Virus record (IMG/VR): IMGVR_UViG_3300020187_003404
Location: 1 to 41,260 of that record
Length of the DNA: 41,260 nt
Origin: a virus
Reading direction: 5' to 3' (one strand)
A program made the translations under genes and the position numbers. Position 1 is the stretch's first letter. The number at the start of each line of letters is the position of its first letter. The notes under the pieces are model-generated. The model had not been told where the DNA came from. It searched no databases and saw nothing but the letters and a program-made list of their open reading frames with translations. This document shows, one piece after another, positions 17,511 to 33,287 of this stretch.

Positions 17511-18161
17511 TTAACTCTTCATATCAGCTACAAACTGATAGAATTCACTTCTAGTAGATGAATCACTCATAAAGTCTCCAGTAAGCTTTGATGTCTTCAT
17601 CTCGCAACCATCATGCTTAACACCTCTAAGACATGCGCATGTATGTGTTGCAGTTAACATCACTGCAACTCCTTTATTACCTTCGCAAATCTTGCTAATA
17701 GCTTCATGTATTTGAACTGTAAGACCTTCTTGGATCTGAGGTCGACGAGCGTAATGCTCTACAATCCGATTAAGCTTACTCAATCCAATAACCTTTCCAT
17801 CTGCAGATGGAATATAAGCAACATGACACCTACCTGTAAAAGCAAGGTGATGGTGAGAGCATAAACTCTTAACTGGAATACCACCTTGAAACACCATTCC
17901 ATCATATCCATCAGACGGGAATGCAGTAATATTAGGTAATTCATTATAGCAACCTGCAGCAATATCATTCACATAAGCTTTCGCTACACGTCTAGGTGTA
18001 TTATCACTATTAGGATCTTTACGCCAATCAATACGTAATGCATCTAAGAATTTTTCATAAGCAAATGTTGCATCATTAATGACATCTGCTTTTTCGTTAT
18101 CCGTTAACGGCATATTACCGTTAGCTGTTGGTAATTTCGTAATTTTAACTCTATCTGACAT
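17511..18161 (-). CDS. folE: GTP cyclohydrolase I
   Basis: This 216-residue protein is close to the usual length. Zinc ligands C101 and C175 are in SLCSHHHLAF and THTCACLRG, with H103/H104 in the active site. IGLSKLNRIVEHYARRPQIQ is the core GTP-binding helix motif of the family. It converts GTP to 7,8-dihydroneopterin triphosphate, the first step of the queuosine and deazaguanine path (also folate). With queD and queE close by, the phage use is almost certainly 7-deazaguanine synthesis. A strong early promoter lies directly upstream, with the -10 box 6 nt before ATG. It is convergent with 17094. Confidence 0.95.
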   Translation of the reverse strand: MSDRVKITKLPTANGNMPLTDNEKADVINDATFAYEKFLDALRIDWRKDPNSDNTPRRVAKAYVNDIAAGCYNELPNITAFPSDGYDGMVFQGGIPVKSLCSHHHLAFTGRCHVAYIPSADGKVIGLSKLNRIVEHYARRPQIQEGLTVQIHEAISKICEGNKGVAVMLTATHTCACLRGVKHDGCEMKTSKLTGDFMSDSSTRSEFYQFVADMKS

Positions 18162-18167
18162 ACATTA

Positions 18168-18195
18168 ATTATATATTATTGATTAAATATTTCAA
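18168..18195 (-). promoter_or_regulatory. Early-type promoter TTGAAA-16-TATAAT of folE
   Basis: On the minus strand, the -35 TTGAAA is at 18190-18195, the -10 TATAAT at 18168-18173, and the folE ATG follows 6 nt later. The spacer contains the late box of the opposite gene. Confidence 0.65.
18182..18189 (+). promoter_or_regulatory. Late-type box ATTAAATA nested in the folE promoter
   Basis: ATTAAATA, 5 nt, then the ATG at 18195. It lies wholly inside the spacer of the folE early promoter on the other strand. Confidence 0.55.
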
Positions 18196-18860
18196 TGACC
18201 GATAAAGAATTATTTAAAAAAGCTGAAAAAATATTTAAATTAAACGAAAATATAGTTGAAAAATGTTATAAAAATGGTCAGTTTAATAAAATACTAAATG
18301 AAAATAGTCCTAGTCGTTATTCAAAACCAGTAGGAAGAGGTAGCCGCTCCAGAGGTAGTATTTTAGGAAGTATCGCGCGCGGTGTAGGTAATGTTGTAAA
18401 AGCACCATTTAAATTAGCAAAAGGTATCGGTGATATAGCTGCAGCAGGTGGTAAAGGTTATAGAGGAGCTCAGACTGAAAAAGCTCGAATGCAACGTGAG
18501 AGAGAAAAGACTAAACAAGAAAGGCTTAAAACGAAAAAATTAAAACAGGAATTAAAACGTAAACCACAAAAACCAGCTACTAGTGATTATGTTAACTCGT
18601 CTGCAATCTTACCTTCATCAGCACCTAAAACAACCTCAAATAATAATTTAAGTAAGCGTGATAATATATTAAATAACATTAAATCTGGTGATACTATTGC
18701 ATTAACGTTGGCTAAGGATCAAGATAACGTTGCGCGCATTGTAAAAATAATTAGTGTGAGTGATGGTAAGATAACTGTTAATGATACGCGTAAAAAATCG
18801 AGTTCAAATTATACCATTAATAAGGGTAATATAAAGGATATAGATTATTTCAGAAAATAA
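18195..18860 (+). CDS. Basic late protein of unknown function
   Basis: A 221-residue protein in three parts. The N-terminal helix (FKKAEKIFKLNENIVEKC) is followed by a Gly/Arg-rich and then Lys/Arg/Glu-rich coiled-coil-like stretch (residues about 90-125), which is a probable nucleic-acid-binding or structural rod. The C-terminal domain of about 65 residues (SGDTIALTLAKDQDNVARIV ... GKITVNDT) looks like a small beta barrel. I do not recognise the family. The late-type box points to a virion or head-associated role. It is followed by 119 nt of gene-free DNA carrying the queD promoter. Confidence 0.55.
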   Translation: MTDKELFKKAEKIFKLNENIVEKCYKNGQFNKILNENSPSRYSKPVGRGSRSRGSILGSIARGVGNVVKAPFKLAKGIGDIAAAGGKGYRGAQTEKARMQREREKTKQERLKTKKLKQELKRKPQKPATSDYVNSSAILPSSAPKTTSNNNLSKRDNILNNIKSGDTIALTLAKDQDNVARIVKIISVSDGKITVNDTRKKSSSNYTINKGNIKDIDYFRK

Positions 18861-18945
18861 CTTTAATCATCTCCTCCCTTCCACCTAAAGGTATTATAAA
18901 TCATTAGAAATATTAATCCACTTTTTTAAAAAAATAATTTAATAG

Positions 18946-18973
18946 TTGAATACTACAATATATACTTCATAAT
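18946..18973 (+). promoter_or_regulatory. Early-type promoter TTGAAT-16-CATAAT of queD
   Basis: The -35 TTGAAT is at 18946-18951 and the -10 CATAAT at 18968-18973; the queD ATG follows 6 nt later. The rest of the 119-nt gap (18861-18945) holds no gene or clear hairpin terminator. Confidence 0.55.
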
Positions 18974-18979
18974 ATATAT

Positions 18980-19642
18980 ATGAGATATGTATCAACTAAA
19001 ATTATTCCTATGGGATCAACTGCTTTTCGTCAATGGAGAGCAGATAGTCATTGTAAGTTAATTCACGGTTACCGTTTACAATGTAAGTTATGGTTTACAG
19101 CTGATGAATTAGATGATAAAAATTGGGTATTTGATTTTGGTGGTTGCAGAGAGATTAAGAAATTATTAGAGAAGCAATTCGATCATACAACTGTAGTAGC
19201 AGCTGATGACCCAGAATTGAGTATGTTTGAGTTGATGTCTACTAAAGGTATGATTGATCTTCGCATTGCTGCAAAAGGAGTTGGTATCGAAAGAACTGCT
19301 GAATGGGTATATGATACAGTTAGTGAATATGTAAATGATACAACTGATGGTAGAGTCCGTGTTATTAAAGTCGAAGTATGGGAGCATGAAGGTAATAGTG
19401 CTATATATGAGCAAGATGAACTACAAATTATACAAAAAGAAAAAATATCTGAATCAGAATCAGAAATCGCTACGAATACTGTAGTGATTGGAAATAATAT
19501 TACCGAAGTACCGGTAGTTAAAGCAGCTGCCGAAGTTAAACCAGTTATAGAAAAAACTCATCCAGCATCAGGTTTGTATAATAAGAAAAGTACAGGTTTT
19601 GGTGATCCATTTGCAGGTACATCATGGGGGAATAAAAGTTAA
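18980..19642 (+). CDS. queD: 6-carboxy-tetrahydropterin synthase (QueD family)
   Basis: FRQWRADSHCKLIHGYRLQC holds the catalytic C25 and H29; DDKNWVFDFGG and KQFDHTTVVAADDPE are the next core motifs, and VEVWEHEGNS ends the active site. This is the FRQWRADSHC subgroup of the PTPS/QueD family, in which the HGH zinc motif reads HGY. It converts dihydroneopterin triphosphate to 6-carboxytetrahydropterin. The enzyme core ends near residue 155; a 65-residue low-complexity tail follows (PASGLYNKKSTGFGDPFAG near the end), unusual for the family. It overlaps the next small gene at TAATG. Confidence 0.88.
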   Translation: MRYVSTKIIPMGSTAFRQWRADSHCKLIHGYRLQCKLWFTADELDDKNWVFDFGGCREIKKLLEKQFDHTTVVAADDPELSMFELMSTKGMIDLRIAAKGVGIERTAEWVYDTVSEYVNDTTDGRVRVIKVEVWEHEGNSAIYEQDELQIIQKEKISESESEIATNTVVIGNNITEVPVVKAAAEVKPVIEKTHPASGLYNKKSTGFGDPFAGTSWGNKS

Positions 19643-19896
19643 TGAGCTTAGGTGATATATATTCAAATAACGTACAAAAAAATTCTATAGGAATGTCTGG
19701 ACTTGCTGGTAGTATGCCAGCTACGCGGGAAAGAGATCCTAAATCTATAGAGTTAGAAACAAATGTTTTCTCTCAGATACAACAAGCAATTAAACCACCT
19801 GCAGAAACTAAAGAAAGGTCTCCTGAACCAGTTATCAACGTACAACCGGTCGGGTTAGAGCAAGCGATGAAAGAATTACTTAACGGTACTGAGTAG
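19642..19896 (+). CDS. Small unknown protein coupled to queD
   Basis: This 84-residue protein begins on the A of the queD stop codon (TAATG), so translation is probably coupled. It is Pro/Glu/Ser-rich with no predicted membrane segment; a short helix near residues 40-50 (NVFSQIQQAI) and the end (GLEQAMKELLNG) are the only ordered-looking parts. I do not recognise it. Together with the low-complexity tail of QueD it might form an interaction module, which is speculative. Confidence 0.55.
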   Translation: MSLGDIYSNNVQKNSIGMSGLAGSMPATRERDPKSIELETNVFSQIQQAIKPPAETKERSPEPVINVQPVGLEQAMKELLNGTE

Positions 19897-19922
19897 ATTA
19901 ACTAAAAACTTTAAGATTCAAC

Positions 19923-19950
19923 TTGATTTGAACTGGAACTATCATATAAT
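19923..19950 (+). promoter_or_regulatory. Early-type promoter TTGATT-16-TATAAT of queE
   Basis: The -35 TTGATT is at 19923-19928 and the -10 TATAAT at 19945-19950; the queE ATG follows 6 nt later. The box sequences and both spacings are identical to those of the DUF366 and groEL genes. Confidence 0.65.
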
Positions 19951-19956
19951 TAGTGT

Positions 19957-20703
19957 ATGGTAGATTTAAATAAGACGCTAAGCTTGAGTGATGATCATGT
20001 TTTTTATACGATTGAAGGTGAAGGTAAATATATAGGGGAACCTTCTGTGTTTATGAGACTCGCTATGTGTAATCTTACATGTAAAGGGTTTGCATCCGAG
20101 GATTCGCCTCACGGTTGTGATTCGTTTGTATCTTGGTCAGTTAAAAATCGTTATACATATGATGAACTTAATAATTTCTATGAGAACAATGGTTTTGTAC
20201 AGAATCTTAAGGACGGTGCTATACTAAAGATTACCGGTGGAGAACCATTGCTCCAGCAAAAGAGGTTAATGAGTTGGTTAATATCATTTATTGATAGGTT
20301 TAAATTTTCTCCTCGTATTGATTTCGAAACGAACGGTTCATTAATGCCTCTACCTGACTGGGCTTCAGTATATAACGCAACATTTACTGTATCTCCTAAG
20401 ATGAGTAATAATGGTGATGCAGAAAAGCTTAGATATAAACCTGAAGTATTAAAATATCATAACGAACTCGGTTCATGCTTTAAGTTTGTCGTTAATAGTG
20501 AAGATGATGAAAAGGAACTATTCGATAAATATATCGATATTGGGTTAGTAAGCAGAGAGCGAGTATGGTTAATGCCTTGTTGCGGTAGTAGAGAAGAGCA
20601 TACTGCTAAATCTGCAATGGTAGCTGAGTTATGTAAGAAACATACACTTAAGTTTAGTCCTAGATTGCAGTTAGTCATCTGGGATCTAGCGTTGCGAGTT
20701 TAG
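19957..20703 (+). CDS. queE: 7-carboxy-7-deazaguanine synthase (QueE family)
   Basis: This 248-residue radical SAM protein has IEGEGKYIGEPSVFMRLAMC at the N-terminus, KITGGEPLLQQ (SAM-binding GGEP) and DFETNGS, all characteristic of QueE. It turns 6-carboxytetrahydropterin into 7-carboxy-7-deazaguanine (CDG). The cluster cysteines appear as C38, C42 and C54 (CX3CX11C) rather than CX3CX2C, because of an insertion between the second and third; the CKGF...HGCDS layout recurs in phage QueE proteins as I recall. It has its own early-type promoter and ends at a strong hairpin terminator. Confidence 0.92.
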   Translation: MVDLNKTLSLSDDHVFYTIEGEGKYIGEPSVFMRLAMCNLTCKGFASEDSPHGCDSFVSWSVKNRYTYDELNNFYENNGFVQNLKDGAILKITGGEPLLQQKRLMSWLISFIDRFKFSPRIDFETNGSLMPLPDWASVYNATFTVSPKMSNNGDAEKLRYKPEVLKYHNELGSCFKFVVNSEDDEKELFDKYIDIGLVSRERVWLMPCCGSREEHTAKSAMVAELCKKHTLKFSPRLQLVIWDLALRV

Positions 20704-20707
20704 TAAA

Positions 20708-20737
20708 AAAAAGCCGTCATTTAAATGACGGCTTTTT
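20708..20737. terminator. Bidirectional intrinsic terminator between queE and 20757
   Basis: A perfect 30-bp palindrome centred at 20722/20723 with core GCCGTCATTTAAATGACGGC, flanked by A-runs on the left and T-runs on the right, so it can act for both convergent genes. Confidence 0.85.
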
Positions 20738-20756
20738 AATGTTTATAAATTGTTGT

Positions 20757-21122
20757 TTAAACGTAACCTAAAGAAACTAATCTACGAATTTCAGGACTTA
20801 CACTATCATAACTTGCAGCTGTCGGTGTTTGAATAGTAACAGCTGTATTATATGTAAATTGAACTGATAACCTATCTTTATTAATAACTGCAAATACTTT
20901 ACCATCATAACCTTCATCTATATCAAAAGTATAAGTTGCTCCATCAAATACAACAGATGCAGGTACTTCAACATCATTTTGTATACTAAGATCGCCGTCG
21001 AATAATAGAGCTGATTTTTGTTGATTGGCGTCTAGACCATTAGGGAAGGTAGAAACATTATAACCTGCTTCGTCTAAAACCCCTGTAAATGATCCTTGAT
21101 TTTTAAAAGATTTAATACTCAT
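20757..21122 (-). CDS. Small late protein, probable structural
   Basis: A 121-residue protein rich in Val, Thr, Ser, Asp and Gly, with beta-like stretches (VVFDGATYTFDIDEG, KDRLSVQFTYNTAVTIQ). It has no enzyme motif, signal peptide or membrane segment. The late-type box 5 nt before its ATG and the beta-rich composition point to a virion component such as a decoration or fibre-associated protein. It is the downstream member of a two-gene minus-strand block with 21153. The family is not recognised. Confidence 0.55.
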   Translation of the reverse strand: MSIKSFKNQGSFTGVLDEAGYNVSTFPNGLDANQQKSALLFDGDLSIQNDVEVPASVVFDGATYTFDIDEGYDGKVFAVINKDRLSVQFTYNTAVTIQTPTAASYDSVSPEIRRLVSLGYV

Positions 21123-21127
21123 ATTAT

Positions 21128-21135
21128 TATTTAAT
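21128..21135 (-). promoter_or_regulatory. Late-type box ATTAAATA before 20757-21122
   Basis: On the minus strand, ATTAAATA then 5 nt then the ATG at 21122. Confidence 0.55.
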
Positions 21136-21152
21136 AAAAACTATTTATATTA

Positions 21153-21401
21153 TTATGATTTAGGCGGTAAACCGTAAATTTCTCTCCATGATTTACGTTT
21201 CTTCGGAGCCTTAGATGTTTCAGCTTTAACTGGTTTTGCTGTTTCTACTGGAGCTGTAACTGTAGATTCTTTTGTAAAAAGACTAGTTATTTGTTCAATT
21301 AATGTTTTTTTATTAAATCTTCTATCTAATTCAACCCCTTTTATTCTACCTAACTTCTCTAACTCAATCTTAGAAAGCTTTTTTAATTCTGATTTATTCA
21401 T
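21153..21401 (-). CDS. Small protein with a SAP/Rho-N-like helical motif
   Basis: An 82-residue protein. Residues 1-40 (SELKKLSKIELEKLGRIKG then VELDRRFNKKTLIEQI) resemble the helix-extended-helix motif of SAP, LEM or Rho-N domains, which bind nucleic acid; the match is by pattern only. A Pro/Ala/Lys-rich linker and a short basic tail (KKRKSWREIYGLPPK) follow. A late-type box sits 5 nt upstream. It may be a small DNA-binding head protein. The sequence is too short for a firm call. Confidence 0.5.
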   Translation of the reverse strand: MNKSELKKLSKIELEKLGRIKGVELDRRFNKKTLIEQITSLFTKESTVTAPVETAKPVKAETSKAPKKRKSWREIYGLPPKS

Positions 21402-21406
21402 ATTAT

Positions 21407-21414
21407 TATTTATT
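21407..21414 (-). promoter_or_regulatory. Late-type box AATAAATA before 21153-21401
   Basis: On the minus strand, AATAAATA then 5 nt then the ATG at 21401. Confidence 0.5.
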
Positions 21415-21436
21415 GTTGAATATGTACATATTTTAG

Positions 21437-21444
21437 ATTAAATA
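21437..21444 (+). promoter_or_regulatory. Late-type box ATTAAATA before 21453
   Basis: ATTAAATA, but 8 nt before the ATG at 21453 instead of 5. Confidence 0.4.
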
Positions 21445-21452
21445 ATTATCTT

Positions 21453-21641
21453 ATGGATATTCTAGTTACATTATCAATCTTCATTGCTGGTTTTATTACT
21501 GGTGCACTTACATTCCGCAATAATACTGCAAAGTCCGAGCAAATCGTCAAGGATACTTTAGAGTTTGCAGCAAAAGCTGAACAAGAAGCTAAAGAATTAG
21601 CAGCAAAGCTAAAGAAGAAGAAACGTACTACAAAGAAGTAA
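21453..21641 (+). CDS. Small membrane-anchored coiled-coil protein
   Basis: This 62-residue protein has one N-terminal transmembrane helix (ILVTLSIFIAGFITGALTF, residues 3-21), then a Glu/Ala/Lys-rich helix and a Lys/Arg tail (KKKKRTTKK). The layout (outside-to-inside anchor plus basic cytoplasmic helix) resembles small phage lysis accessory proteins or i-spanin-like anchors. It faces the holin gene across a shared terminator, which makes a lysis role plausible but unproven. Confidence 0.6.
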   Translation: MDILVTLSIFIAGFITGALTFRNNTAKSEQIVKDTLEFAAKAEQEAKELAAKLKKKKRTTKK

Positions 21642-21665
21642 ATTTAACATCTTTTTTGTTTAATC

Positions 21666-21694
21666 AAATCCGTCATATGACGGATTTTTTTTTT
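21666..21694. terminator. Bidirectional intrinsic terminator between 21453 and the holin gene
   Basis: A perfect palindrome at 21666-21687 (core ATCCGTCATATGACGGAT) followed by a T-run to 21694 that runs into the last codon of the minus-strand gene. The core resembles the terminator at 20708. Confidence 0.8.
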
Positions 21695-22175
21695 ACTTTC
21701 TACCACCGGGTGTGAAGTAGAACCCTATAATAGCACCCAACATTGTTATTGAAATTAATGCAATGTGACCGGTGGTAATTGCCACAACGGTTTCTGTTCC
21801 CAGAGGTATTTTGATGAAGCCGAAGAGGATGGAGATATAGTCTTTATTCTCTCTTGGGACGAAGGTGAGGAGTTCAACACTTGGCCAGACGGTGCAGAGA
21901 ACTGAGATGACGAAGAAGTTGAGCATCCCGATAAGAGCAATAAGACGCCTTGTAGTACGAGTAAAAGCACTGTTATCTCCATTGGCTTCACCAAAAACTG
22001 CTTTTTGAAACTCCACATCAGCTTTACGTAAGTCCATTTCTCTGAGCATTTCACGCTTCTCTCGAGATTCTTTTGCAGCACCGAAGCGATCAACAATACC
22101 GGCGATGATTTTAAGGGTTGATCCCATCCCGGTTGCGCCGAGAGTACTAAGTAACATTGTAATAAGTCCAAACAT
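21693..22175 (-). CDS. Holin, 3TM gene-transfer-agent type
   Basis: This 160-residue protein has an N-terminal hydrophobic segment (residues about 3-25), a charged helical middle (KESREKREMLREMDLRKADV), then two more membrane segments (about 90-112 and 128-155). RTTRRLIALIGMLNF before the second is typical of the GTA_holin_3TM family. It would form the membrane lesion that releases endolysin. Sampled lines of the gene are 52-55% GC, far above the rest of the window, which suggests recent transfer. An overlapping frame on the same strand is open but looks non-biological. Confidence 0.65.
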   Translation of the reverse strand: MFGLITMLLSTLGATGMGSTLKIIAGIVDRFGAAKESREKREMLREMDLRKADVEFQKAVFGEANGDNSAFTRTTRRLIALIGMLNFFVISVLCTVWPSVELLTFVPRENKDYISILFGFIKIPLGTETVVAITTGHIALISITMLGAIIGFYFTPGGRK

Positions 22176-22188
22176 ATCATTTTATTAT

Positions 22189-22196
22189 ATTAAATA
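22189..22196 (+). promoter_or_regulatory. Late-type box ATTAAATA before the Nudix gene
   Basis: ATTAAATA, 5 nt, then the GTG at 22202; the spacing supports the GTG start. Confidence 0.5.
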
Positions 22197-22201
22197 TTTA
22201 T

Positions 22202-22639
22202 GTGAACTTTAACAATTTAGTCAATTTAGATATACCTAATAGTAAAAAAATCGATACAAATAGAGTATCTAAAATTATTTCGACCTTTAATAATAAATTT
22301 TTAATGCTTCAAAAGAAAAATGGTCAATTTGAATTACCAGGTGGTCATATACAAAGAGGTGAAAGTCCAAACAATGGAGCAAAGAGAGAGTTCTTTGAAG
22401 AAACTGGGGTAAATATTAAAAAAATAAATCAAATATCATCTAATAGTTCTCGAGTTTTATATAGAGGTTATATAAATACCAGTATTATTAAATTAAGTTC
22501 GGAACATAAAAGCTTTAGATTTGTTTCAGAAAGAGAGTTATTTAAATTACCACTAAGTAAGTGGTCTAAAAAGGATTTAGCTTTCTTAAAGCCGCGTAAA
22601 AAGACTCCTGATGAAGAGGAGCTTGATGATGAGATTTAA
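22202..22639 (+). CDS. Nudix hydrolase
   Basis: The complete Nudix box GX5EX7REUXEEXGU is present in GHIQRGESPNNGAKREFFEE followed by TGV. The enzyme hydrolyses a nucleoside diphosphate linked to another group: nucleotide sugars, ADP-ribose, NAD(H), (d)NTPs or capped RNA. At 145 residues it is a single-domain form. The N-terminus MNFNNLVNLDIPNSKK weakly resembles the other FxxF/L-type leaders of late genes. The start is GTG with a late box at the standard distance. It is convergent with the nuclease gene and overlaps it by 4 nt. Confidence 0.9.
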   Translation: MNFNNLVNLDIPNSKKIDTNRVSKIISTFNNKFLMLQKKNGQFELPGGHIQRGESPNNGAKREFFEETGVNIKKINQISSNSSRVLYRGYINTSIIKLSSEHKSFRFVSERELFKLPLSKWSKKDLAFLKPRKKTPDEEELDDEI

Positions 22640-23325
22640 ACGTTTGTTTTATTATAATCTTCAATTAGAGCTTTAATTTCAGTCTTCATATAGTTTAGAC
22701 GAATAGGATACCAAGTATCGTCTTTATTTTTATAGAAGACAACTAACCCGCTACACTTCTTACCACTACTTAACTCGTATAAGTATGCGTATAATGAAAG
22801 CTGTAGGCAGTATGTATTAAACTCACATACACCTAAATGATCGACAGGAGCTTTAAAAAACTCGTTATATTCACTATAGAACCTAAAGTTTTTATTTGTC
22901 TTAAAATCACCTACATAAAAATATTTTGAATTTTCATAAATTAAATCCGCAGTACCGGCGATGTTTAATCCGATATTATGTAATCTCATCTCACATGTTA
23001 ACTTCGGAAACTTTTTGAATATATACTCCCACTTCTTATAGGAGTCATATAATGTAGTATATTTTTCTTCACGCTTATCTTCACCTAAAAAGTCTTCCAT
23101 TACTTTATGTATATGGGTACCATAATCGCAAGCTCTATTTTTCTCGGTATTCCATTCCTCAAGTATAAAGTCGACAGTTACACCTTCTCTAGCTGCTACT
23201 CGAGTAGCATTACCTATTGAATCGAACGCAGGTTTATACTTACCGAGCAGAGTAGTAGCTGAGATTAACTCTTTACCAGTTTCATCATCAACATATTTGT
23301 GTTTTTCTTCATTAAATATAACCAT
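22636..23325 (-). CDS. RecB-type PD-(D/E)XK nuclease
   Basis: A 229-residue protein with the layout of RecB/Cas4-like exonuclease domains: GTHIHKVMEDFL (motif with the metal-site His), AGTADLIYENSKYFYVGDFK (Asp, then the DxK core), and CLQLSLYAYLYE (the QxxxY motif that follows in RecB-type nucleases). It probably degrades DNA ends during phage recombination, replication or host DNA breakdown. No helicase domain is attached. A sigma70-like promoter lies upstream and overlaps the divergent one of the kinase gene. Confidence 0.8.
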   Translation of the reverse strand: MVIFNEEKHKYVDDETGKELISATTLLGKYKPAFDSIGNATRVAAREGVTVDFILEEWNTEKNRACDYGTHIHKVMEDFLGEDKREEKYTTLYDSYKKWEYIFKKFPKLTCEMRLHNIGLNIAGTADLIYENSKYFYVGDFKTNKNFRFYSEYNEFFKAPVDHLGVCEFNTYCLQLSLYAYLYELSSGKKCSGLVVFYKNKDDTWYPIRLNYMKTEIKALIEDYNKTNV

Positions 23326-23334
23326 TATACAACA

Positions 23335-23362
23335 ATTATAGTATATAAACTTGAAAAGTCAA
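23335..23362 (-). promoter_or_regulatory. Early-type promoter TTGACT-16-TATAAT of the nuclease gene
   Basis: On the minus strand, the -35 TTGACT is at 23357-23362 and the -10 TATAAT at 23335-23340; the ATG lies 9 nt downstream. Confidence 0.55.
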
Positions 23363-23378
23363 ATTTAGGTATTAAAAT
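23351..23378 (+). promoter_or_regulatory. Early-type promoter TTGAAA-16-TAAAAT of the kinase gene
   Basis: The -35 TTGAAA is at 23351-23356 and the -10 TAAAAT at 23373-23378; the ATG at 23385 follows 6 nt later. It interlocks with the divergent nuclease promoter. Confidence 0.5.
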
Positions 23379-23384
23379 AAATAT

Positions 23385-24149
23385 ATGAGAATTGCAATAA
23401 GCGGAACCGGTAATCAAGGTAAGACAACTCTAATTAATGACTTCTTACAGGAATGGTCAAATTATAAAACTGAAAGCTCTACATATAGAGATAAGTTAGT
23501 ATCTGAAAAATTACCGCATAGTAAAAATGCTACAAAAGATACTCAATGGAAAATACTCAACCATATGATTGATGAAATGCAGACATTTGGTCCTGATGAT
23601 AATGTAATTATGGATAGATGTCCTATTGATAATCTTGTATATTCACTATGGTGTTTAGAAAAAGGTGTTGGTGATATTGATGAAGAATTTATTACTAAAT
23701 GTATACCATTAGTATCAGAGAGTATGAAGCATTTAGATATAATCTTCTTTTTACCAATTACAAAATTTAATAATATTAAAATTGAAGATGATGGTGTAAG
23801 GGAAACCGATGAAATTTATATTAAGGAAATTGATTACATTTTTAAAGCCATACAAGCTCAATATCAGCAACACCCACAAGAAAATCCATTCTTCCCTAGT
23901 GATGATTCACCAGCCTTAATTGAAGTATTCGGTAACCAACGTGAACGGTTAGAAATGATTAAGTTATATCTGGATGTTGATGGTGATATAATTGAAGGTG
24001 ATCAATCAGAATTGTTTAATCCAGAAAACTTAGACTTAATGGAAAAGTTACTTAAACAACAATCTAAATCAAACGATAATGAAAAAGAACTAAAAAAGCA
24101 GTTAGAACAAATTAAAGAATTTAATAAGTTAAATAACTTAAACCTTTAA
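23385..24149 (+). CDS. Deoxynucleoside/thymidylate kinase-like P-loop protein
   Basis: IAISGTGNQGKTTLINDFL is a Walker A P-loop at the N-terminus, and VIMDRCPIDNLVYSLW contains the D-R motif of the deoxynucleoside kinase and thymidylate kinase group. IIFFLPITKF fits the Walker B-type strand. The enzyme region spans about 190 residues; a C-terminal helical tail (residues about 205-254, rich in Lys, Glu and Gln) extends beyond. It may phosphorylate nucleosides or nucleotides for DNA synthesis; an ATPase of another kind is possible. It has an early-type promoter and a convergent 4-nt overlap with the next gene. Confidence 0.65.
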   Translation: MRIAISGTGNQGKTTLINDFLQEWSNYKTESSTYRDKLVSEKLPHSKNATKDTQWKILNHMIDEMQTFGPDDNVIMDRCPIDNLVYSLWCLEKGVGDIDEEFITKCIPLVSESMKHLDIIFFLPITKFNNIKIEDDGVRETDEIYIKEIDYIFKAIQAQYQQHPQENPFFPSDDSPALIEVFGNQRERLEMIKLYLDVDGDIIEGDQSELFNPENLDLMEKLLKQQSKSNDNEKELKKQLEQIKEFNKLNNLNL

Positions 24150-24559: not shown

Positions 24560-24566
24560 ATATATA

Positions 24567-25355
24567 ATGTCAAAGATTGGTATAGGTATAATAACATGCA
24601 ACAGAAATGAATTTCTTGCAAACTGCGTTAAGAGCATATGTTCAGAATGGTATGATGAGATTATTATTGTTAATGATGGTGATAAGCCTATCACTACATT
24701 TTATGATTGTGATATTATTAATAACGAAAAAAACATAGGTGTATGTAAAAGTAAAAATAAAGCTCTTAAAGAGTTATTGAACCGAGGTTGTGATTACATT
24801 TTCCTTGTAGAAGATGATATGAGATTTAAAGGTAACGTTTTTAACGAATACATTAAAGCTAGTAAAGTTACTGGTATAGAACATATGTCCTTTGCTTATC
24901 ACGGACCAGCGAATAAAGGTAATATAAGTAAAGGTAAACCTAAACCACGTAAAATAATTGATTACGGTGATGTTAAAATTTCTTTAAATCAACACTCTGT
25001 TGGTGCAGTATGCTTTTATACTAAAAAATGTCTAAAAGATGTAGGTATATTTGATGAGGAATTTGATAAAAATAATTTTGAACATGTAGATCATTCATAT
25101 AGATTAGCTAAAGCTGGTTATAGTACACCTTACTGGTGGTGGTCTGATTTAGCTAATAGCTTAGATTACATAGAAGAACAAGCATGTAGTGAAGATAGTT
25201 CATCTATAAGAAGAGGTGATGACTGGCAGCAAAGTATTATGGACAGCGCTTACATTTTTAAAAGAAAGCATGGAGTAATGCCAGCATGGAGTGAATGCGT
25301 ACCAGATACACCTGTTAATAAAGTTATTGAATTTTTAAAGAAAGTAAAGAAATGA
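24567..25355 (+). CDS. GT2-family glycosyltransferase
   Basis: This 262-residue protein shows the GT2 pattern: GIGIITCNRNEFLANCVKSI, IIVNDGDKP with the uridine-binding Asp, CDYIFLVEDDMRF with the DxD-like metal site (EDD), and FDEEFDKNNFEHVDHSYRLA, which fits the acceptor and catalytic base region. WWWSDLANSLDYIEEQA near the end is unusual. It is the first gene of the second sugar island and has its own TTGACA promoter. It overlaps the next gene by ATGA. Confidence 0.82.
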   Translation: MSKIGIGIITCNRNEFLANCVKSICSEWYDEIIIVNDGDKPITTFYDCDIINNEKNIGVCKSKNKALKELLNRGCDYIFLVEDDMRFKGNVFNEYIKASKVTGIEHMSFAYHGPANKGNISKGKPKPRKIIDYGDVKISLNQHSVGAVCFYTKKCLKDVGIFDEEFDKNNFEHVDHSYRLAKAGYSTPYWWWSDLANSLDYIEEQACSEDSSSIRRGDDWQQSIMDSAYIFKRKHGVMPAWSECVPDTPVNKVIEFLKKVKK

Positions 25356-26086
25356 AAATAGATGTTATCTTTTTATCCAACACCGTTAATATTGAACAGT
25401 ACGGTAATACGCAACGTGCTATTAATACTTTACGTATGTCGCAATCTGGTTATCAGACGTCTTGCGTCGATTTTAATATTATAGTTGTTGAAAGTAATTC
25501 AAAATATCAAAATGAAGGTTTCTGGTACCATGATTGTAAAGTAATATCTAAAGATGAAGAGTTTAATTATAATAAATTTCTAAATTATGGCTTGCAAGAA
25601 TGTAAAAGTGATTGGATTATTATAGCAAATAATGATGTTATATTCACACAAAACTGGTTTAGTAAGATAATTGATTTTGATAATGAAAATCCTGGATATG
25701 GTATGTTTTGTCCATATGAACCAAATTGGCATAAAGCTAAAGAAAACCTTTCAGCACAATCTGGTCAAATAATCGACGGTAAAAAAGATTTTTATGAGGG
25801 GTACAGGACGTCTTTTGAAATAACCGGTTGGTGTATGGTTTTAAAGAGAGATACTATTAATAAGTGTGAATTATTTGATGAAAGATTTTCATTCTGGTAT
25901 CAAGATAATGATCTTTCATTAACGTTACAAACTAAAAATATTAAAAATGCATTAGTTACTAACTCAAAGGTATATCATATGGTGAGCCAATCTTATAGTA
26001 CAATACCTGATCACAAAAAACGTAGTATGATGGAAGATCAAATTAAAACTTTTCACAAAAAATGGAATAATAATAATGACCGGTAA
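25352..26086 (+). CDS. GT2-like glycosyltransferase
   Basis: A 244-residue protein with a GT-A fold order of motifs: VIFLSNT at the N-terminus, IIVVESNSKY, NYNKFLNYGLQECKSDWIII followed by ANNDVIF (the DxD-equivalent NND), GWCMVLKRDTI, and FDERFSFWYQDNDLSLTLQT, the ED/QD acceptor region of the family. The donor is unknown. It is coupled to its neighbours by overlaps of 4 and 11 nt. Confidence 0.78.
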   Translation: MKIDVIFLSNTVNIEQYGNTQRAINTLRMSQSGYQTSCVDFNIIVVESNSKYQNEGFWYHDCKVISKDEEFNYNKFLNYGLQECKSDWIIIANNDVIFTQNWFSKIIDFDNENPGYGMFCPYEPNWHKAKENLSAQSGQIIDGKKDFYEGYRTSFEITGWCMVLKRDTINKCELFDERFSFWYQDNDLSLTLQTKNIKNALVTNSKVYHMVSQSYSTIPDHKKRSMMEDQIKTFHKKWNNNNDR

Positions 26087-26714
26087 ATTAATTAGTAAAT
26101 ATAAACCTGATAACAATAAAAAATTTCACATTGTTGTACCTACTTATAATGGTGGTACAAAACTTGAGGTTTTTATTAATTGTTTTTTATCTCAAACCTG
26201 CGATAATTACCATATAACTATAGTTTCAGATGGTCCAGAACCTGATACAGTAAAACAATTATCTAAATATTTCGATTACCCGAACTTTTCATATTATAGT
26301 TTAGAAAAGAGATATAACGATTTCGGTCATACACCACGGGAATTTGGATTACTCCAATCCAATTGTAAATATACTATTATGACAGGCTTTGATAATTATT
26401 ATGTTCCGATTTTTATTGAACGTTTTAATGAAGTAGATTTAAAAACCTCAGATGCTGGTTTTATTTTTTGCGATTTTGTTTTAGATCATATAAGAGAAGG
26501 AAAACGGTATAATAAGTATTTTAATGCTGAAATTAAAAGTAGTTGTATAGATATCGGGTGTTTTGCAACATTAACAACAATTGCAAAACAGATTGGGTTT
26601 AAATTTAGGAGTTATGCAGCTGATTGGGAGTTTGTAGAAGCAGCAATACCTGAATTAAAAAAACAAAAACTAAATATTTTAAAAATACCTCAAACTCTAT
26701 ACATACATAATTAA
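26076..26714 (+). CDS. GT2-family glycosyltransferase
   Basis: A 212-residue protein with HIVVPTYNGGTKLEVFINCF, ITIVSDGPEP (first Asp of the donor site), and YTIMTGFDNYYVP, where GFDN stands in the place of the usual DxD. IKSSCIDIGCFATLTTIAKQ and SYAADWEFVEAAI fit the second half of the family. The DxD variant may alter metal use. It overlaps its upstream neighbour by 11 nt and shares TAATG with the next gene. Confidence 0.75.
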   Translation: MTGKLISKYKPDNNKKFHIVVPTYNGGTKLEVFINCFLSQTCDNYHITIVSDGPEPDTVKQLSKYFDYPNFSYYSLEKRYNDFGHTPREFGLLQSNCKYTIMTGFDNYYVPIFIERFNEVDLKTSDAGFIFCDFVLDHIREGKRYNKYFNAEIKSSCIDIGCFATLTTIAKQIGFKFRSYAADWEFVEAAIPELKKQKLNILKIPQTLYIHN

Positions 26715-27439
26715 TGAATATAACAATATATACAATTACATATAATGAAGAAAAGATGTTACCGTTTTTTCTCGATCACTATAGTAAATTTGCTTCTAAG
26801 ATAGTCATATACGATAATGAATCTACTGATAATACAGTTAAAATAGCTAAAGAACATCCATTAGTAAAAGGCATTTACAGTGTTAAAACTGGTGATTGTT
26901 TAGATGATAGTATGTATGTTCAAATTAAAAATTCATGTTGGAAAGAAGATACTAGTGATTATGTAATGCTTGTTGATACAGATGAATTAATTTACCATGA
27001 TAAAGATGTTATAGAATATTTAGAAAAAACAAAATATCCGGTATATCGCCCGATTGGGTTTAATATGGTTAGTAATATGTTTCCTAAAGTTGGTAGCTTA
27101 ATTACTGAACAAATTAAGACTGGTATACCAGATCATATGTATAATAAACCGGTAATATTTAATCCAAATTTAATTAAAAAAACTCAATTTGAACTTGGTA
27201 TACATAACGGTACATTTTTTAATAATAACCAACAAATATTACCTATACAAAGTGAATTGAAGATGTTACACTATAAGAATTTAAGTTTTGATTATAGAAT
27301 AAATAGACATAAAATGTTTTCAAAAAGAATGAGTGAATTTAATCAGAGGACAGGAGCTGGTATTCATTATACATGGGATATAGATAAACAAAAACAAGAA
27401 TTTGATAATTGTTTAATACATAGTGAGGAAGTAATTTAA
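26714..27439 (+). CDS. GT2-like glycosyltransferase (Glyco_tranf_2_4 / GT92-like)
   Basis: A 241-residue protein: YTITYNEEKMLPFFLDHYSK, IVIYDNESTDNT and VMLVDTDELIYH (DxD). This order matches the Glyco_tranf_2_4 group, in which the N-terminal motif NEExxLPxFLxHY is diagnostic. LHYKNLSFDYRI near the end matches the HYK/H-type closing motif. It starts at TAATG after the previous gene and ends at TAATG with the methyltransferase gene. Confidence 0.82.
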   Translation: MNITIYTITYNEEKMLPFFLDHYSKFASKIVIYDNESTDNTVKIAKEHPLVKGIYSVKTGDCLDDSMYVQIKNSCWKEDTSDYVMLVDTDELIYHDKDVIEYLEKTKYPVYRPIGFNMVSNMFPKVGSLITEQIKTGIPDHMYNKPVIFNPNLIKKTQFELGIHNGTFFNNNQQILPIQSELKMLHYKNLSFDYRINRHKMFSKRMSEFNQRTGAGIHYTWDIDKQKQEFDNCLIHSEEVI

Positions 27440-27990
27440 TGCCTACAAATACAGGAATATATACCAAAGCAGATGCTTCAGTAGGTCACATACATTCAGA
27501 GAATTTATGTAATAAACTATCACAAATTCTTGATAAGAATATACCTATTGTTGATATAGGATGTGGTCGTGGTGATTATGTACAATCTCTTAACTTAAAA
27601 GGGTTTAACATTAAAGGAATTGATGGTATTAAACTTGAGTGCCATGATGATAATATACATATATTCAATTTAACTAAACCTTTTATTATTGATAATAAAT
27701 GCACTATTATGAGCCTTGAAGTAGGTGAACATATACCTAAACAATATGAAAATACATTTATTGATAATCTTGTTAATAATTGTAGCGGTAAACTTATTTT
27801 ATCGTGGGCTATTGAAGGTCAAGCAGGTATAGGGCATATAAATTGTAAGAATAATGATTATATTATCAATCGTTTAAAAGATCGTGGATTTATTTTTAAC
27901 CCAGAAATAACCGATAATCTTAGAAACGTAGTTGAAGATAATTGCGATTACTTTAGAAACACATTAATGTTTTTTGAAAAAAGTGAATGA
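27439..27990 (+). CDS. SAM-dependent class I methyltransferase
   Basis: A 183-residue protein with VDIGCGRGDYVQSLNLKGF, the glycine-rich SAM loop (motif I), KGIDGIKLE as the acidic ribose-binding loop, and MSLEVGEHIPKQYENTFIDN, the motif often seen in small-molecule and sugar methyltransferases. It could methylate a sugar in the glycan made by the neighbouring transferases. The acceptor is unknown. It overlaps the next gene by 8 nt if that starts at the GTG at 27983. Confidence 0.82.
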   Translation: MPTNTGIYTKADASVGHIHSENLCNKLSQILDKNIPIVDIGCGRGDYVQSLNLKGFNIKGIDGIKLECHDDNIHIFNLTKPFIIDNKCTIMSLEVGEHIPKQYENTFIDNLVNNCSGKLILSWAIEGQAGIGHINCKNNDYIINRLKDRGFIFNPEITDNLRNVVEDNCDYFRNTLMFFEKSE

Positions 27991-28648
27991 TAAAATTACA
28001 GTTACATTGACGCATTTCAAACGTCTAGATCTTTTAAAAGAAACTTTAAGATCTTTTTTTAGTACAAATCGTTATGAAATAGACCAATTTTTAATAATTG
28101 ATGATTCGGCTGAAAAATACTATAGTGATGAAATAAAAAGACTTTATAGTAATTGTGCAACGATTATTGTAAATAAAGAAAATATTGGCCAGAGACGCTC
28201 AATTGATAGGTTAATTAATGCATGTAATAATGAATATATTTTTCATTTAGAAGAAGACTGGTTATTTGATTCTCAACAAATTAATTATATTGAGGATTCG
28301 TTAATAATTTTAAAAAATAACCCAGACATACACCATGTACACATTAGACATCGCGATGATTTTACTCACCCAACTGTAGGTGATATACAATATACTAATA
28401 ATATTGGTTATAAATTATTAGACAATAATTGGAGAGATTGTTGGACAGGTTTTAGTTTCAACCCAGGGTTAAGACGTAAATCTGATATAGTAAAAATGTT
28501 TCTAAATGGTTTGTCAGAATTTAAAGACGAAATGCAAGCATCCATACATACAAAAAAATTTAATTATAAAGCAGTTCTTTTAGAAAATACTGCATGTAGG
28601 CATATAGGTTGGGGTTATGGTACACAACATGGAGGTAAAGGATTTTAA
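27983..28648 (+). CDS. GT2-like glycosyltransferase
   Basis: The start is placed at GTG 27983; a TTG at 27974 is also open and would lengthen it by three residues. ITVTLTHFKRLDLLKETLRS, FLIIDDSAE, NIGQRRSIDRLI and YIFHLEEDWLF (EED in place of DxD) are GT2 features. DCWTGFSFNPGLRRKSDI and CRHIGWGYGTQHGGKG complete the product, ending in a Gly/His-rich tail. It has TAATG coupling to the next gene. Confidence 0.75.
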   Translation: MNDKITVTLTHFKRLDLLKETLRSFFSTNRYEIDQFLIIDDSAEKYYSDEIKRLYSNCATIIVNKENIGQRRSIDRLINACNNEYIFHLEEDWLFDSQQINYIEDSLIILKNNPDIHHVHIRHRDDFTHPTVGDIQYTNNIGYKLLDNNWRDCWTGFSFNPGLRRKSDIVKMFLNGLSEFKDEMQASIHTKKFNYKAVLLENTACRHIGWGYGTQHGGKGF

Positions 28649-29325
28649 TGCATAACTTAATAATAGGGGAAACATGTTTATTATCATACCAACTGCGTAG
28701 ATTAAACATAACAGAAGGTAAAAATGAACTTTTTGATAATATGTTAGCTACAATTGACGGGGTTTATGATTTGATAGATGATAATTTTAGTAATATATTA
28801 AATGATAAATATCTCGATTTCATAAACTACCCATATTACCCTGATCATGGAATAAGTCATTCAAAATGGGTTAATAAAAAATATTCTATTGATAAAGATA
28901 ATATATTTTCCTGGCCAGTTTTTGCTTTCTTTCATTACGACGCTTTCAATCAAGACCAAAAAGATTCTATAATTCGTAAAACAACAAGATTAAAAAATAA
29001 ACTTGAAGATAAAGAAAATGTAAATCTATTTTATTATTATAGAGAAGGTAAAAATTATAACTTATCAAAAATTATAAAAAAGTGTAATAGTTTTAAAAAA
29101 TTTGTAACTGAAAAATACAATAAACCTTTTAATATTATTTTAGTAACTAAAGATAATGGAGATAAAAATATATTATATAAAAAAATAGACGATATATACC
29201 ATTTTAATTTTACATCCCCTCACTCGTGGGTGGGGATTGATGATAATTGGGATGCTCACCATGATAATGATCTATTTGATATTTTTAAAACTGAATATGA
29301 AAAAATTATTTGTAATATTAACTAG
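28648..29325 (+). CDS. Papain-like cysteine peptidase fold protein (DUF1796-like)
   Basis: This 225-residue protein begins LIIGETCLLSYQLRRLNITE, placing a Cys in the GxxC...LR position used by the putative papain-like peptidase family DUF1796. NYPYYPDHGISHSKWV gives a candidate catalytic His, and NPFNIILVTKDNG fits the middle strand. These proteins occur in glycan loci beside glycosyltransferases, where an acyl- or glycosyl-transfer role has been suggested. The assignment is by motif only. It overlaps the next gene by 29 nt. Confidence 0.45.
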   Translation: MHNLIIGETCLLSYQLRRLNITEGKNELFDNMLATIDGVYDLIDDNFSNILNDKYLDFINYPYYPDHGISHSKWVNKKYSIDKDNIFSWPVFAFFHYDAFNQDQKDSIIRKTTRLKNKLEDKENVNLFYYYREGKNYNLSKIIKKCNSFKKFVTEKYNKPFNIILVTKDNGDKNILYKKIDDIYHFNFTSPHSWVGIDDNWDAHHDNDLFDIFKTEYEKIICNIN

Positions 29326-29944
29326 AAATAGTAACTTCGTAGTTGATTGTACTGAATCAATATTGAAATACCACCCTAATGATGATATTATTATAATTGA
29401 TAGTAATTCAGATGATTTATCTTATGTAAGCAAATTAAAAACTAAAATTAAAAAAATAAATTTAATAAAAAATAAAAATTTTATGGACGGAGCTATATGG
29501 TACACTTACGAAAATTATACGAATTATAAAAATTATGCTTTTTTACAAGATTCAACTGAATTATTGACTAATATTGATTTTGCATTTAATAATGACATAA
29601 CTAGTGTACAATATTTTAATGATTGTATAGATATGGGTAGAGATCAATTTATGATAGAAAAATTAAAAAAGCATACTGGATTAGATTTACCTAATAATAT
29701 ATTAGGGTTATTTGGACCTATGATGGTATGTAGTAGAAATTTTCTCGATAAAGCAAAAAAATTAGGAATGTCTGAGGTATTACCTGAAAGAAAAGATTGT
29801 CAAAATTCTATGGAAAGAGTATGGGGATTTGTTGCTTCGCATCTAGGTTATGATATTAAAGAAAATTGCATTGAAGGAGCTCATGGAGGGCAACATTACA
29901 AAAATTTCAAGCATGTTTATAAAAAATATGCTGAACGTACATAA
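29297..29944 (+). CDS. GT2-like glycosyltransferase fold protein
   Basis: The start is taken at 29297 (KKLFVILTRNSNFVVDC); an upstream in-frame start at 29237 would add 20 hydrophobic residues that lie wholly inside the preceding gene and are probably untranslated. IIIIDSNSDDLSYVSK resembles the donor-binding strand. YAFLQDSTELLTN replaces the DxD motif with QDS. GLFGPMMVCSRNFLDKAKKL and ERVWGFVASHLGYDI follow the family's later motifs. The product is 215 residues. Activity is uncertain because of the altered metal motif. Confidence 0.6.
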   Translation: MKKLFVILTRNSNFVVDCTESILKYHPNDDIIIIDSNSDDLSYVSKLKTKIKKINLIKNKNFMDGAIWYTYENYTNYKNYAFLQDSTELLTNIDFAFNNDITSVQYFNDCIDMGRDQFMIEKLKKHTGLDLPNNILGLFGPMMVCSRNFLDKAKKLGMSEVLPERKDCQNSMERVWGFVASHLGYDIKENCIEGAHGGQHYKNFKHVYKKYAERT

Positions 29945-29953
29945 ACAAATAAA

Positions 29954-31315
29954 ATGAAAAAATTAATTATTTTTGATCTAGATGGTGTATTAGTAAATAC
30001 TAAGGAATTACATTTTAACGCTTTAAATGCTGCTTTATCTACTATAGATAAAAAATATTGCATAACAATGCAAGAACATTTAACTGTATTTGATGGTCTC
30101 AAAACCAGAGAAAAATTAAACATGTTATCAAGTTTAAAAGGCTTACCGCATAATTTGCATGAACAAATATGGGTAGATAAACAAAAAACTACAAAACTTC
30201 TCACAGAAAATATACCTCAAAATAATAAACTTATTAAAGTTTTTAAACAATTGAATAAGTATGGTGTAAAAATTGCTTGTTGTTCTAATTCAATTCGTAA
30301 TACAGTTTATACATTATTAGCTAGAGTCGGTATTGTTGAATATTTTGATTTAATTGTATCTAATGAAGATGTAGATAATAGTAAACCTCATCCGGAAATG
30401 TATTGGAAAACAATGTCATGCTTTGGATTAACACCTGACGAAACTGTTATATTAGAAGACAGCCCAGTAGGTCTTCTAGGTGCTAAAAGAAGCGGTGGAG
30501 ATATTATTAGAATAAAAAATGTAGATGATTTAACACTTGATAAAGTACATAGTGGTTTATATAATAAAGATAATATTATGAATAATAAATGGCAAGATGA
30601 AAAATTAAACGTTCTTATACCCATGGCTGGTGCTGGTAGTAGATTTAAAAAAGCTGGTTATACTTTCCCGAAACCTCTTATCGAAGTAGAAGGTAAACCT
30701 ATGATTCAGTTAGTAACTGAAAATTTAAACTTGGATAGTAAGTATACCTATATTATACAGGAGAGTCATAATGAAAAATATAACTTAAAATCTATGTTAT
30801 CATTAATATCTCCTAATTGTAATGTTGTTGATATCGATGGTATAACTGAAGGAGCTGCATGTACAACACTCCTGGCTAAAGAGCATATTAATAATGATAA
30901 TCCTTTGATTATAGCAAATTCAGATCAATATGTTGAATGGGATGTAAATAATTTTATGTATAAGATGCAAGAGCAAGATGTTGATGCTGGAATTTTATGT
31001 TTTAATTCAACTCACCCAAAATGGTCTTATGCAAAAGTAGATGAGTATGGGTTTGTTACTGAAGTTGCTGAAAAAAATCCAATTTCAAATATAGCGACAG
31101 TGGGGGTTTATTATTGGAAAAAAGGTTCTGATTATGTAAAGTATGCTGAAGAGATGATAGAAAAAAATATTAGACATAATAACGAATTCTATGTTGCTCC
31201 GGTCTTTAATCAAGCAATTAAAGATTGCAAAAAAATTAAAACGTATATGGTAGAAAGAATGTGGGGTATAGGTACACCAGAAGATCTTGATATATTTCTT
31301 AATAGAGATAAATGA
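29954..31315 (+). CDS. HAD phosphatase fused to sugar nucleotidyltransferase
   Basis: A 453-residue fusion. Residues 1-205 are a HAD hydrolase of the beta-phosphoglucomutase type: FDLDGVLVNTKELHF (nucleophile Asp8, Asp10), CCSNSIRNT, NSKPHPEMYW and LEDSPVGLLGAKRSG. Residues about 213-453 are a nucleotidyltransferase: LIPMAGAGSRFKKAGYTFPK is the NTP-binding loop, IIANSDQYVEW the metal Asp. Together they could dephosphorylate or isomerise a sugar phosphate and then activate it with an NTP, feeding the neighbouring transferases. The next gene overlaps by ATGA. Confidence 0.85.
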   Translation: MKKLIIFDLDGVLVNTKELHFNALNAALSTIDKKYCITMQEHLTVFDGLKTREKLNMLSSLKGLPHNLHEQIWVDKQKTTKLLTENIPQNNKLIKVFKQLNKYGVKIACCSNSIRNTVYTLLARVGIVEYFDLIVSNEDVDNSKPHPEMYWKTMSCFGLTPDETVILEDSPVGLLGAKRSGGDIIRIKNVDDLTLDKVHSGLYNKDNIMNNKWQDEKLNVLIPMAGAGSRFKKAGYTFPKPLIEVEGKPMIQLVTENLNLDSKYTYIIQESHNEKYNLKSMLSLISPNCNVVDIDGITEGAACTTLLAKEHINNDNPLIIANSDQYVEWDVNNFMYKMQEQDVDAGILCFNSTHPKWSYAKVDEYGFVTEVAEKNPISNIATVGVYYWKKGSDYVKYAEEMIEKNIRHNNEFYVAPVFNQAIKDCKKIKTYMVERMWGIGTPEDLDIFLNRDK

Positions 31316-31761
31316 TAATAATATCCCATAGAGGTAACATTTCTGGACCAGATCCTGAAAATGAAAATAAACCTACAAATATTCTAAAAACGTTAGAAAA
31401 TTTTGACTGTGAAATAGATCTATGGTATGTAAAAGGTCAATTAATGCTTGGTCATGATGAACCTCAATATGCTATTGGGGAAGATTTTTTGAAAAATGAA
31501 GGTTTATGGGTACATGCAAAAAATATAGAAGCTTTAAATTTTTTAAATGATACCAATTTAAATTATTTTTGGCATCAAGAAGATAAGGCTACTATAACAA
31601 GCTTAGGATTCATCTGGTGCTACCCTGGGGTGTATTGCAGTAATGGTATTACAGTGGAAACGGGGTATAATACTAAAACCCATAATGACTTGGCTGAGTC
31701 TAATATTGCTGGTATATGTACGGATTACCCGTTAAATTATTTTAAAGAATATCTTGATTAG
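31312..31761 (+). CDS. Short glycerophosphodiesterase-like (GDPD) protein
   Basis: ISHRGNISGP provides the HRG motif, CEIDLWYVKGQLMLGHDEP the E-x-D and HD motifs of the GDPD active site; LNYFWHQEDKATITSLGFIW and GICTDYPLNYF follow the later TIM-barrel positions. At 149 residues it lacks several barrel strands of the usual 230-plus residue enzymes, although short versions occur in polysaccharide loci. It could cut a glycerophosphodiester from a glycan or lipid, or be a binding remnant. It is the last gene of the second island, with its stop codon inside the -35 region of the following promoter. Confidence 0.65.
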   Translation: MIIISHRGNISGPDPENENKPTNILKTLENFDCEIDLWYVKGQLMLGHDEPQYAIGEDFLKNEGLWVHAKNIEALNFLNDTNLNYFWHQEDKATITSLGFIWCYPGVYCSNGITVETGYNTKTHNDLAESNIAGICTDYPLNYFKEYLD

Positions 31762-31781
31762 ATAAGGAACGTTCATATAAT
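31754..31781 (+). promoter_or_regulatory. Early-type promoter TTGATT-16-TATAAT of the DUF366 gene
   Basis: The -35 TTGATT is at 31754-31759 and the -10 TATAAT at 31776-31781; the ATG at 31788 follows 6 nt later. The arrangement matches queE and groEL exactly. Confidence 0.65.
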
Positions 31782-31787
31782 TGGTAT

Positions 31788-32378
31788 ATGATTATTAAAG
31801 ATATTAAGGTTTATGATGGCCCGTTAATTCATAAGAGATTTGCTTACGATTATTTTCGTAATAAGACATTACCAATTGGTAATATTATTGCTTTTCGATG
31901 CCCTATGGATGTGAGTATCGATGGTATGATCGACCAGGAAGATGTACTTCAAGGTGACTATATCTATAGTGATGATGCTATTAACTTTTGCTGGGAGATT
32001 CCTAATCTAGATAAGCTAGGCGCTGTAGCGTTTCAGCGATTGCTTAATACTCAAATTGCTAATATACTTTCTTCTAAATATATTAAGAAGCCTATTGAAG
32101 TAGATGGAGATGATTTGATGGTACATGCCGAGTTTGAAGGTAGTGATGGTACATTACAAAAGGTCGGTAAGTGTAGTGTAAGTATTACATATTCAAAAGA
32201 TAGTGTAGCAATCGGTCATACTGGTATCAATGTTAATGCAGGTCGTAAAGCTCCTAACTTTGCATATAGTACAGGTTTAACTGACGATCAAACTACGGAG
32301 TTTATGCAGGATATTATTGATCTTTTTTATGCGATGGTAGATGATATGTTTATTGCTACTACTAAGATCAATCTATAA
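31788..32378 (+). CDS. DUF366 family protein, possible CDG decarboxylase (DpdL)
   Basis: This 196-residue protein has the run of DUF366 motifs: YDGPLIHKRFAYDYF, GNIIAFRCPMDVSIDGMIDQ, FQRLLNTQIANIL, DGDDLMVHAEF, GKCSVSITYSKDSVAIGHTG and INVNAG. The family occurs in archaea, bacteria and phages. I recall it as DpdL, proposed to decarboxylate 7-carboxy-7-deazaguanine to 7-deazaguanine for DNA modification; that link is from memory and untested. Its promoter is identical in layout to that of queE, which supports membership of the deazaguanine regulon. The genome segment lies about 11 kb from queE. Confidence 0.7.
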   Translation: MIIKDIKVYDGPLIHKRFAYDYFRNKTLPIGNIIAFRCPMDVSIDGMIDQEDVLQGDYIYSDDAINFCWEIPNLDKLGAVAFQRLLNTQIANILSSKYIKKPIEVDGDDLMVHAEFEGSDGTLQKVGKCSVSITYSKDSVAIGHTGINVNAGRKAPNFAYSTGLTDDQTTEFMQDIIDLFYAMVDDMFIATTKINL

Positions 32379-32824: not shown

Positions 32825-32858
32825 AAATAATCTCCCTGTTGATTACTAATTTATAAGG

Positions 32859-32866
32859 TTTAAATA
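32859..32866 (+). promoter_or_regulatory. Late-like box TTTAAATA before the GroES-like gene
   Basis: TTTAAATA lies 7 nt before the ATG at 32874, slightly off the usual spacing. Confidence 0.35.
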
Positions 32867-33284: not shown

Positions 33285-33287
33285 TAG

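Follow-up and report, generated by a model that had tools for sequence, protein, structure and literature searches.

A probable 7-deazaguanine DNA-modification pathway in a marine T4-like phage, with a DUF366 protein as candidate companion of its QueC/QueE stage

Main finding

Gene content, synteny, folds and operon neighbours lead us to propose that the DNA analysed here belongs to a marine T4-like phage that probably makes a 7-deazaguanine base, most likely preQ1, and inserts it into its DNA by means of DpdA, with a DUF366 protein as a companion of the QueC/QueE stage. FolE, QueD and QueE, which are encoded in the window (the whole stretch of DNA that was analysed: 41,260 bases, entered in IMG/VR as a linear virus record and representing a genome fragment), would convert GTP to CDG. 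A QueC that would form preQ0 from CDG and a QueF that would reduce preQ0 to preQ1 are both predicted to lie outside the window, as is a DpdA of the firehammervirus type, which would exchange guanine of already synthesized DNA for the free base. The DNA would most likely come to contain dPreQ1, perhaps in place of most or even all of its guanines. DUF366 would probably handle a carboxylate, whether CDG itself or an acyl intermediate derived from it, and would not replace QueC.

Deazaguanine genes of the window and their promoters

The CDG-making set is complete inside the window: folE (17511-18161, minus strand; PF01227, 163 bits) encodes GTP cyclohydrolase I, queD (18980-19642, plus strand; PF01242 (PTPS), 65 bits, and phrog_2389) a 6-carboxytetrahydropterin synthase-like protein, and queE (19957-20703, plus strand; phrog_2076, 160 bits) a CDG (7-carboxy-7-deazaguanine) synthase-like radical SAM protein whose closest solved relative is the CDG synthase 4njg. 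The DUF366 gene (31788-32378, plus strand) encodes a protein of the biotin/lipoate-ligase fold that scores 81 bits against PF04017, for which the curated cut-off is 29.9 bits. These four ORFs, whose identities a sequence-only reading had proposed and family searches now corroborate, are the only ones in the window matched by a panel of deazaguanine-pathway proteins. As that reading had also stated, no QueC or QueF was found in the window by search, and neither the panel nor clustering of the DpdA family revealed a QueF- or DpdA-like ORF there.

The gene neighbourhood is T4-like, with NrdA/NrdB, a clamp-loader-like protein, a GroES-like protein and a helicase. A small ORF that overlaps the 3' end of queD (19642-19896, plus strand) is conserved in relatives: its family is present in six of them, and the counterpart in the 185-kb relative G003 is 45% identical. 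In QueD (18980-19642), SHCxxxHGY replaces the usual CxxxHGH, a trait common to Cellulophaga phages phi38:2 and phiST and to Flavobacterium phage vB_FspM_immuto (hereafter immuto), and given HGY for HGH the zinc site may have been rebuilt. A P-loop kinase encoded at 23385-24149 falls into one cluster with the relatives' kinase whose gene separates dpdA from queF. Two large islands (1926-16860 and 24567-31315) resemble glycosyltransferase and sugar-nucleotide genes, and a HAD hydrolase-nucleotidyltransferase fusion is encoded in the second at 29954-31315.

Sigma-70-like promoters precede folE (TTGAAA-N16-TATAAT, 18168-18195, minus strand), queD (TTGAAT-N16-CATAAT, 18946-18973, plus strand), queE (TTGATT-N16-TATAAT, 19923-19950, plus strand) and the DUF366 gene (TTGATT-N16-TATAAT, 31754-31781, plus strand). 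All four conform to TTG-N18..21-TATAAT or a close likeness of it and end 3-10 nt 5' of the ATG, a placement that would give nearly leaderless mRNAs. The likeness had been taken to tie the four genes together, and it is real; the specific tie does not stand, as the same promoter is found at 11 of the 53 window ORFs (0.36 expected from shuffles), among them helicase, epimerase, nuclease, kinase and glycosyltransferase ORFs, and thus marks a general early-type gene class. It also lies before dpdA in the sister contig G018. A second class, TAAATA-N1..9-ATG, occurs at 12 of the 53 ORFs (1.9 expected), and the existence of two ATG-proximal classes suggests near-leaderless early and late mRNAs. The window has 17 late-promoter matches to TATAAATA where 21.7 are expected, which is no enrichment.

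queC lies beyond the left edge in collinear relatives

Searching viral contigs for DUF366 yielded 499 relatives. Of the first 20 DUF366 contigs, 8 have a QueC, among them all but one of the eight largest. Each of the eight phage contigs that measure 74-221 kb and encode DUF366 has a QueF and a DpdA-like gene, and seven have QueC. In G003, which encodes a QueC (TIGR00364, 158.6 against a curated cut-off of 150.3), collinearity with the window runs from nrdB leftwards to the window's edge. A second contig, G159, matches the window in patches (236-31954, plus strand) at 83-94% nucleotide identity; its queC is situated about 15-16 kb to the left of the position of the window start. Because these collinear relatives possess queC, its absence here is best seen as an edge effect of a 41-kb fragment, and the proposal of a QueC-less pathway gives way: queC, like queF and dpdA, lies outside the window-equivalent stretch. 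From relatives at 83-96% identity we infer that this phage would carry all three.

At the folE site, G003 and G159 have a non-homologous folE2 instead (in G003, NF010200, 276.6 bits against a cut-off of 215). This swap of FolE and FolE2 at one syntenic site indicates that selection maintains GTP cyclohydrolase activity even as the gene is exchanged. The QueC of the long relatives (e.g. L094:1537-2286) and that of immuto have lost at least two C-terminal zinc-site cysteines, and the product of QueC in this lineage could therefore be ADG or preQ0.

Other genes of the region vary. In G003, a spermidine-synthase-like gene and two SpeD-like genes (64404-65959; L092:4404-5959), recognized by eye, follow queE and are absent from that place in the window. 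A small phosphoribosyltransferase-like gene is conserved in the phage group (g18rc 31538-31993; G002, G003, G006, G007), and a gene of this type adjoins queE/folE in immuto.

DUF366 has a ligase-type fold and keeps company with QueC

Phage, bacterial and archaeal DUF366 proteins are about 30% identical to one another; GDD, Lys128, Ser130/132 (SxSI), His144 and Asn148 are invariant, and the lysine after GDD is conserved. Its AlphaFold model (pLDDT 91) is best matched by 2ddz (Z 22.8), followed by BirA (Z 13.1, rmsd 2.9, 155 residues) and by LplA and LipB (Z 11-12), and on this modelled structure DUF366 has the fold of the BPL/LPL catalytic domain. Members of the biotin/lipoate ligase superfamily bind, activate or transfer carboxylates, and we know of no decarboxylase among them. 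Since CDG is itself a carboxylate, our best guess, held tentatively, is that DUF366 acts at the CDG/QueC step.

In 3/3 Clostridia genomes with DUF366, the order queD-queC-DUF366-queE is almost gapless; in Gastranaerophilales-type genomes, DUF366 comes directly after queC, and in one Thermococci contig queC stands two genes upstream of it. DUF366 thus adjoins queC or sits inside its operons, which argues that it goes with QueC and does not substitute for it. Taken together, the modelled fold and the operon neighbours suggest that DUF366 is probably a companion of the QueC/QueE stage that handles CDG or a CDG-derived acyl intermediate. In the Thermococcus phylum, the joint occurrence of DUF366 and QueC in 115 genomes was uninformative, QueC-like matches being nearly universal there; in most of the genomes sampled (L182-L211), DUF366 follows a HAD phosphatase gene.

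The same BPL/LplA/LipB fold could instead serve acyl transfer onto the amine of preQ1, so that DUF366 would acylate or otherwise decorate the base and give a further DNA derivative, as the formyltransferase of immuto presumably does, and in phages DUF366 indeed accompanies QueF. We regard this as unlikely: QueF was not found in the Gastranaerophilales-type and Thermococci cells that bear DUF366, several phages have DUF366 and a formyltransferase together, and the cellular operon partners of DUF366 are QueD, QueC and QueE. Two simpler assignments were also rejected, DUF366 as a replacement of QueF, which is present with it in the same phages and in Clostridia, and DUF366 as an alternative to the formyltransferase, the two being encoded together by G004 and by the contigs of L291, L293, L298 and L303.

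The only named "phage" with DUF366 is Microcystis phage MaAM05 (MW495066; L100). This record also encodes FliM, SecDF, FabI, an acyl-CoA dehydrogenase and ScpAB, and its gene content points to a bacterial contig that was submitted under a phage name.

A dpdA-kinase-queF operon lies beyond the right edge in a sister contig

The last 9.5 kb of the window (31776-41260, plus strand) is collinear with contig G018 at 91-96% nucleotide identity. About 8.1 kb past the position of the window's right end, G018 has an operon of overlapping genes, dpdA (20617-21408), a kinase gene (21398-21949) and queF (21927-22865), at which no formyltransferase gene was found. The sequence-only reading had placed DpdA outside the window and predicted a 7-deazaguanine-type DNA modification; this operon, and the occurrence of QueF with the DpdA family in all eight long relatives, support both.

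The DpdA of the relatives was first spotted as a neighbour gene of queF and confirmed afterwards. Its family comprises proteins of 263-268 aa with no Pfam match, encoded together with a P-loop kinase directly before queF. Members are 51% identical to the annotated DpdA of immuto and 48-49% identical to a protein of Campylobacter firehammerviruses (48% for that of CP220), a subfamily that we take to be the DpdA3 of Cui 2023. A tree places immuto inside the set of DUF366 phages, most other forks lacking resolution. The gene order is dpdA-kinase in CP220 and dpdA-formyltransferase-kinase-queF in immuto and four DUF366 phages. In an AlphaFold model of the DpdA (pLDDT 93), TGTs fill the top ranks of structural matches (Foldseek 3e-9; Z 17.9, rmsd 2.9, 233 residues aligned), and D52, D83 and D204 are invariant in 32 sequences, their TGT roles being assigned by motif and not by residue-level superposition. 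The TGT likeness appears in the fold comparison alone: the family profile found no TGT among PDB sequences, the TGT Pfam family PF01702 and the DpdA1 PHROG phrog_887 matched no transglycosylase in the relatives, and the DpdA2-like protein of KVP40 and the proteins of HVTV-1 and phi38:2 found no DpdA there when used as queries.

QueF is two-domain (bimodular) in all eight long DUF366 contigs. Compared with V. cholerae QueF (3bp1), it retains the Cys-Asp pair and the ESKS-K (ESKSxK) NADPH motif, which identifies it as a nitrile reductase and not a QueF-L. Given QueF and the lack of a formyltransferase in the sister operon, the simplest product would be dPreQ1.

It could be argued that these genes serve tRNA queuosine, or the host Tgt, during infection and leave the phage DNA alone, because preQ1, the product of QueF, is the substrate of bacterial Tgt, and queD, queE and queF of marine Bacteroidetes T4-like viruses have been so interpreted (PMC7198788). 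We find this quite improbable in view of the TGT-fold enzyme, 48-51% identical to phage DpdA, that shares an overlapping operon with queF. Modification of phage DNA is well supported on these sequence grounds, and the base would be of the preQ1 type.

The last alternative, which the sequence-only reading had favoured, is very doubtful: in it DUF366 is DpdL, a CDG decarboxylase, the QueC step is missing and the phage inserts 7-deazaguanine or CDG, as FolE, QueD and QueE supplying CDG, a DUF366 protein in a window without QueC and the carboxylate binding of the BPL/LPL superfamily would allow, and it is disfavoured by the QueC and canonical bimodular QueF of the lineage, by the queD-queC-DUF366-queE operons and queC-adjoining genes of cells, by a fold that to our knowledge no decarboxylase has, and by Cellulophaga phage phiST, which has folE, queE, queD and a DpdA-like gene, no annotated queC and, in a sensitive profile search that covered almost all of its record, no DUF366. 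A literature search, whose reach did not extend to Cui et al. 2023, returned no paper that joins DUF366 and DpdL.

Significance

The preferred reading, a preQ1-type base inserted by DpdA with DUF366 as a QueC/QueE-stage companion, extends the firehammervirus type of guanine replacement, known in few isolates, to a marine phage group that is abundant and uncultured. The steps that seemed to be missing from a viral fragment were found, in collinear relatives, beyond the edges of the window. The results also tie DUF366, an orphan family for which a structure has been solved (2ddz), to preQ0 biosynthesis, apparently as a hitherto unexplained partner of the phage guanine-modification pathway, which makes its function testable in cultured Clostridia and Thermococcus. 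We advance only tentatively the broader proposal that one marine T4-like phage group of wide occurrence replaces most or all of its guanine with a preQ1-type base and that DUF366, with its biotin/lipoate-ligase fold, is an unrecognised 7-deazaguanine-pathway enzyme of the carboxylate (CDG/QueC) stage in phages, Clostridia, Vampirovibrionia-type bacteria and archaea.

Comparison with known systems

Among named phages, immuto shows the same gene set, with annotated FolE, QueD, QueE, QueC, QueF and DpdA. Besides the 51% identity of its DpdA, it shares the dpdA-kinase-queF order, the lost zinc site of QueC and the HGY motif of QueD. It differs in the formyltransferase gene between dpdA and the kinase gene, and no DUF366 was found in 148 of its 160 kb.

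The firehammerviruses CP220 and CP21 are T4-like phages as well, with a DpdA of 48% identity, a P-loop kinase gene after dpdA, and both QueE and QueC. Unlike in the DUF366 phages, neither a QueF next to dpdA nor a DUF366 turned up in the regions that were searched, and the QueC of the Campylobacter phage CP21 keeps the zinc cysteines that the window's lineage has lost. Their modified base is said, from work by Crippen in 2019, to be dADG. Deoxyguanosine in firehammervirus DNA is completely replaced by 7-deazaguanine derivatives (PMC10273834).

The Dpd and phage 9g-type systems (DpdA1, Gat-QueC) are alike in that a TGT paralogue inserts a Que-made base (PMC6884629). They use another DpdA subfamily, phrog_887 matching nothing in the relatives, and 9g makes archaeosine. 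The archaeal and bacterial DUF366 proteins (2ddz; Clostridia operons) belong to the same family as the phage form, with the same invariant GDD, Lys128, SxSI, His144 and Asn148, but are only about 30% identical to it and serve cellular base or tRNA pathways. Finally, marine Bacteroidetes T4-like viruses carry queD, queE, queF and a GTP cyclohydrolase gene (PMC7198788), and the phage group of the window may be the very group described there.
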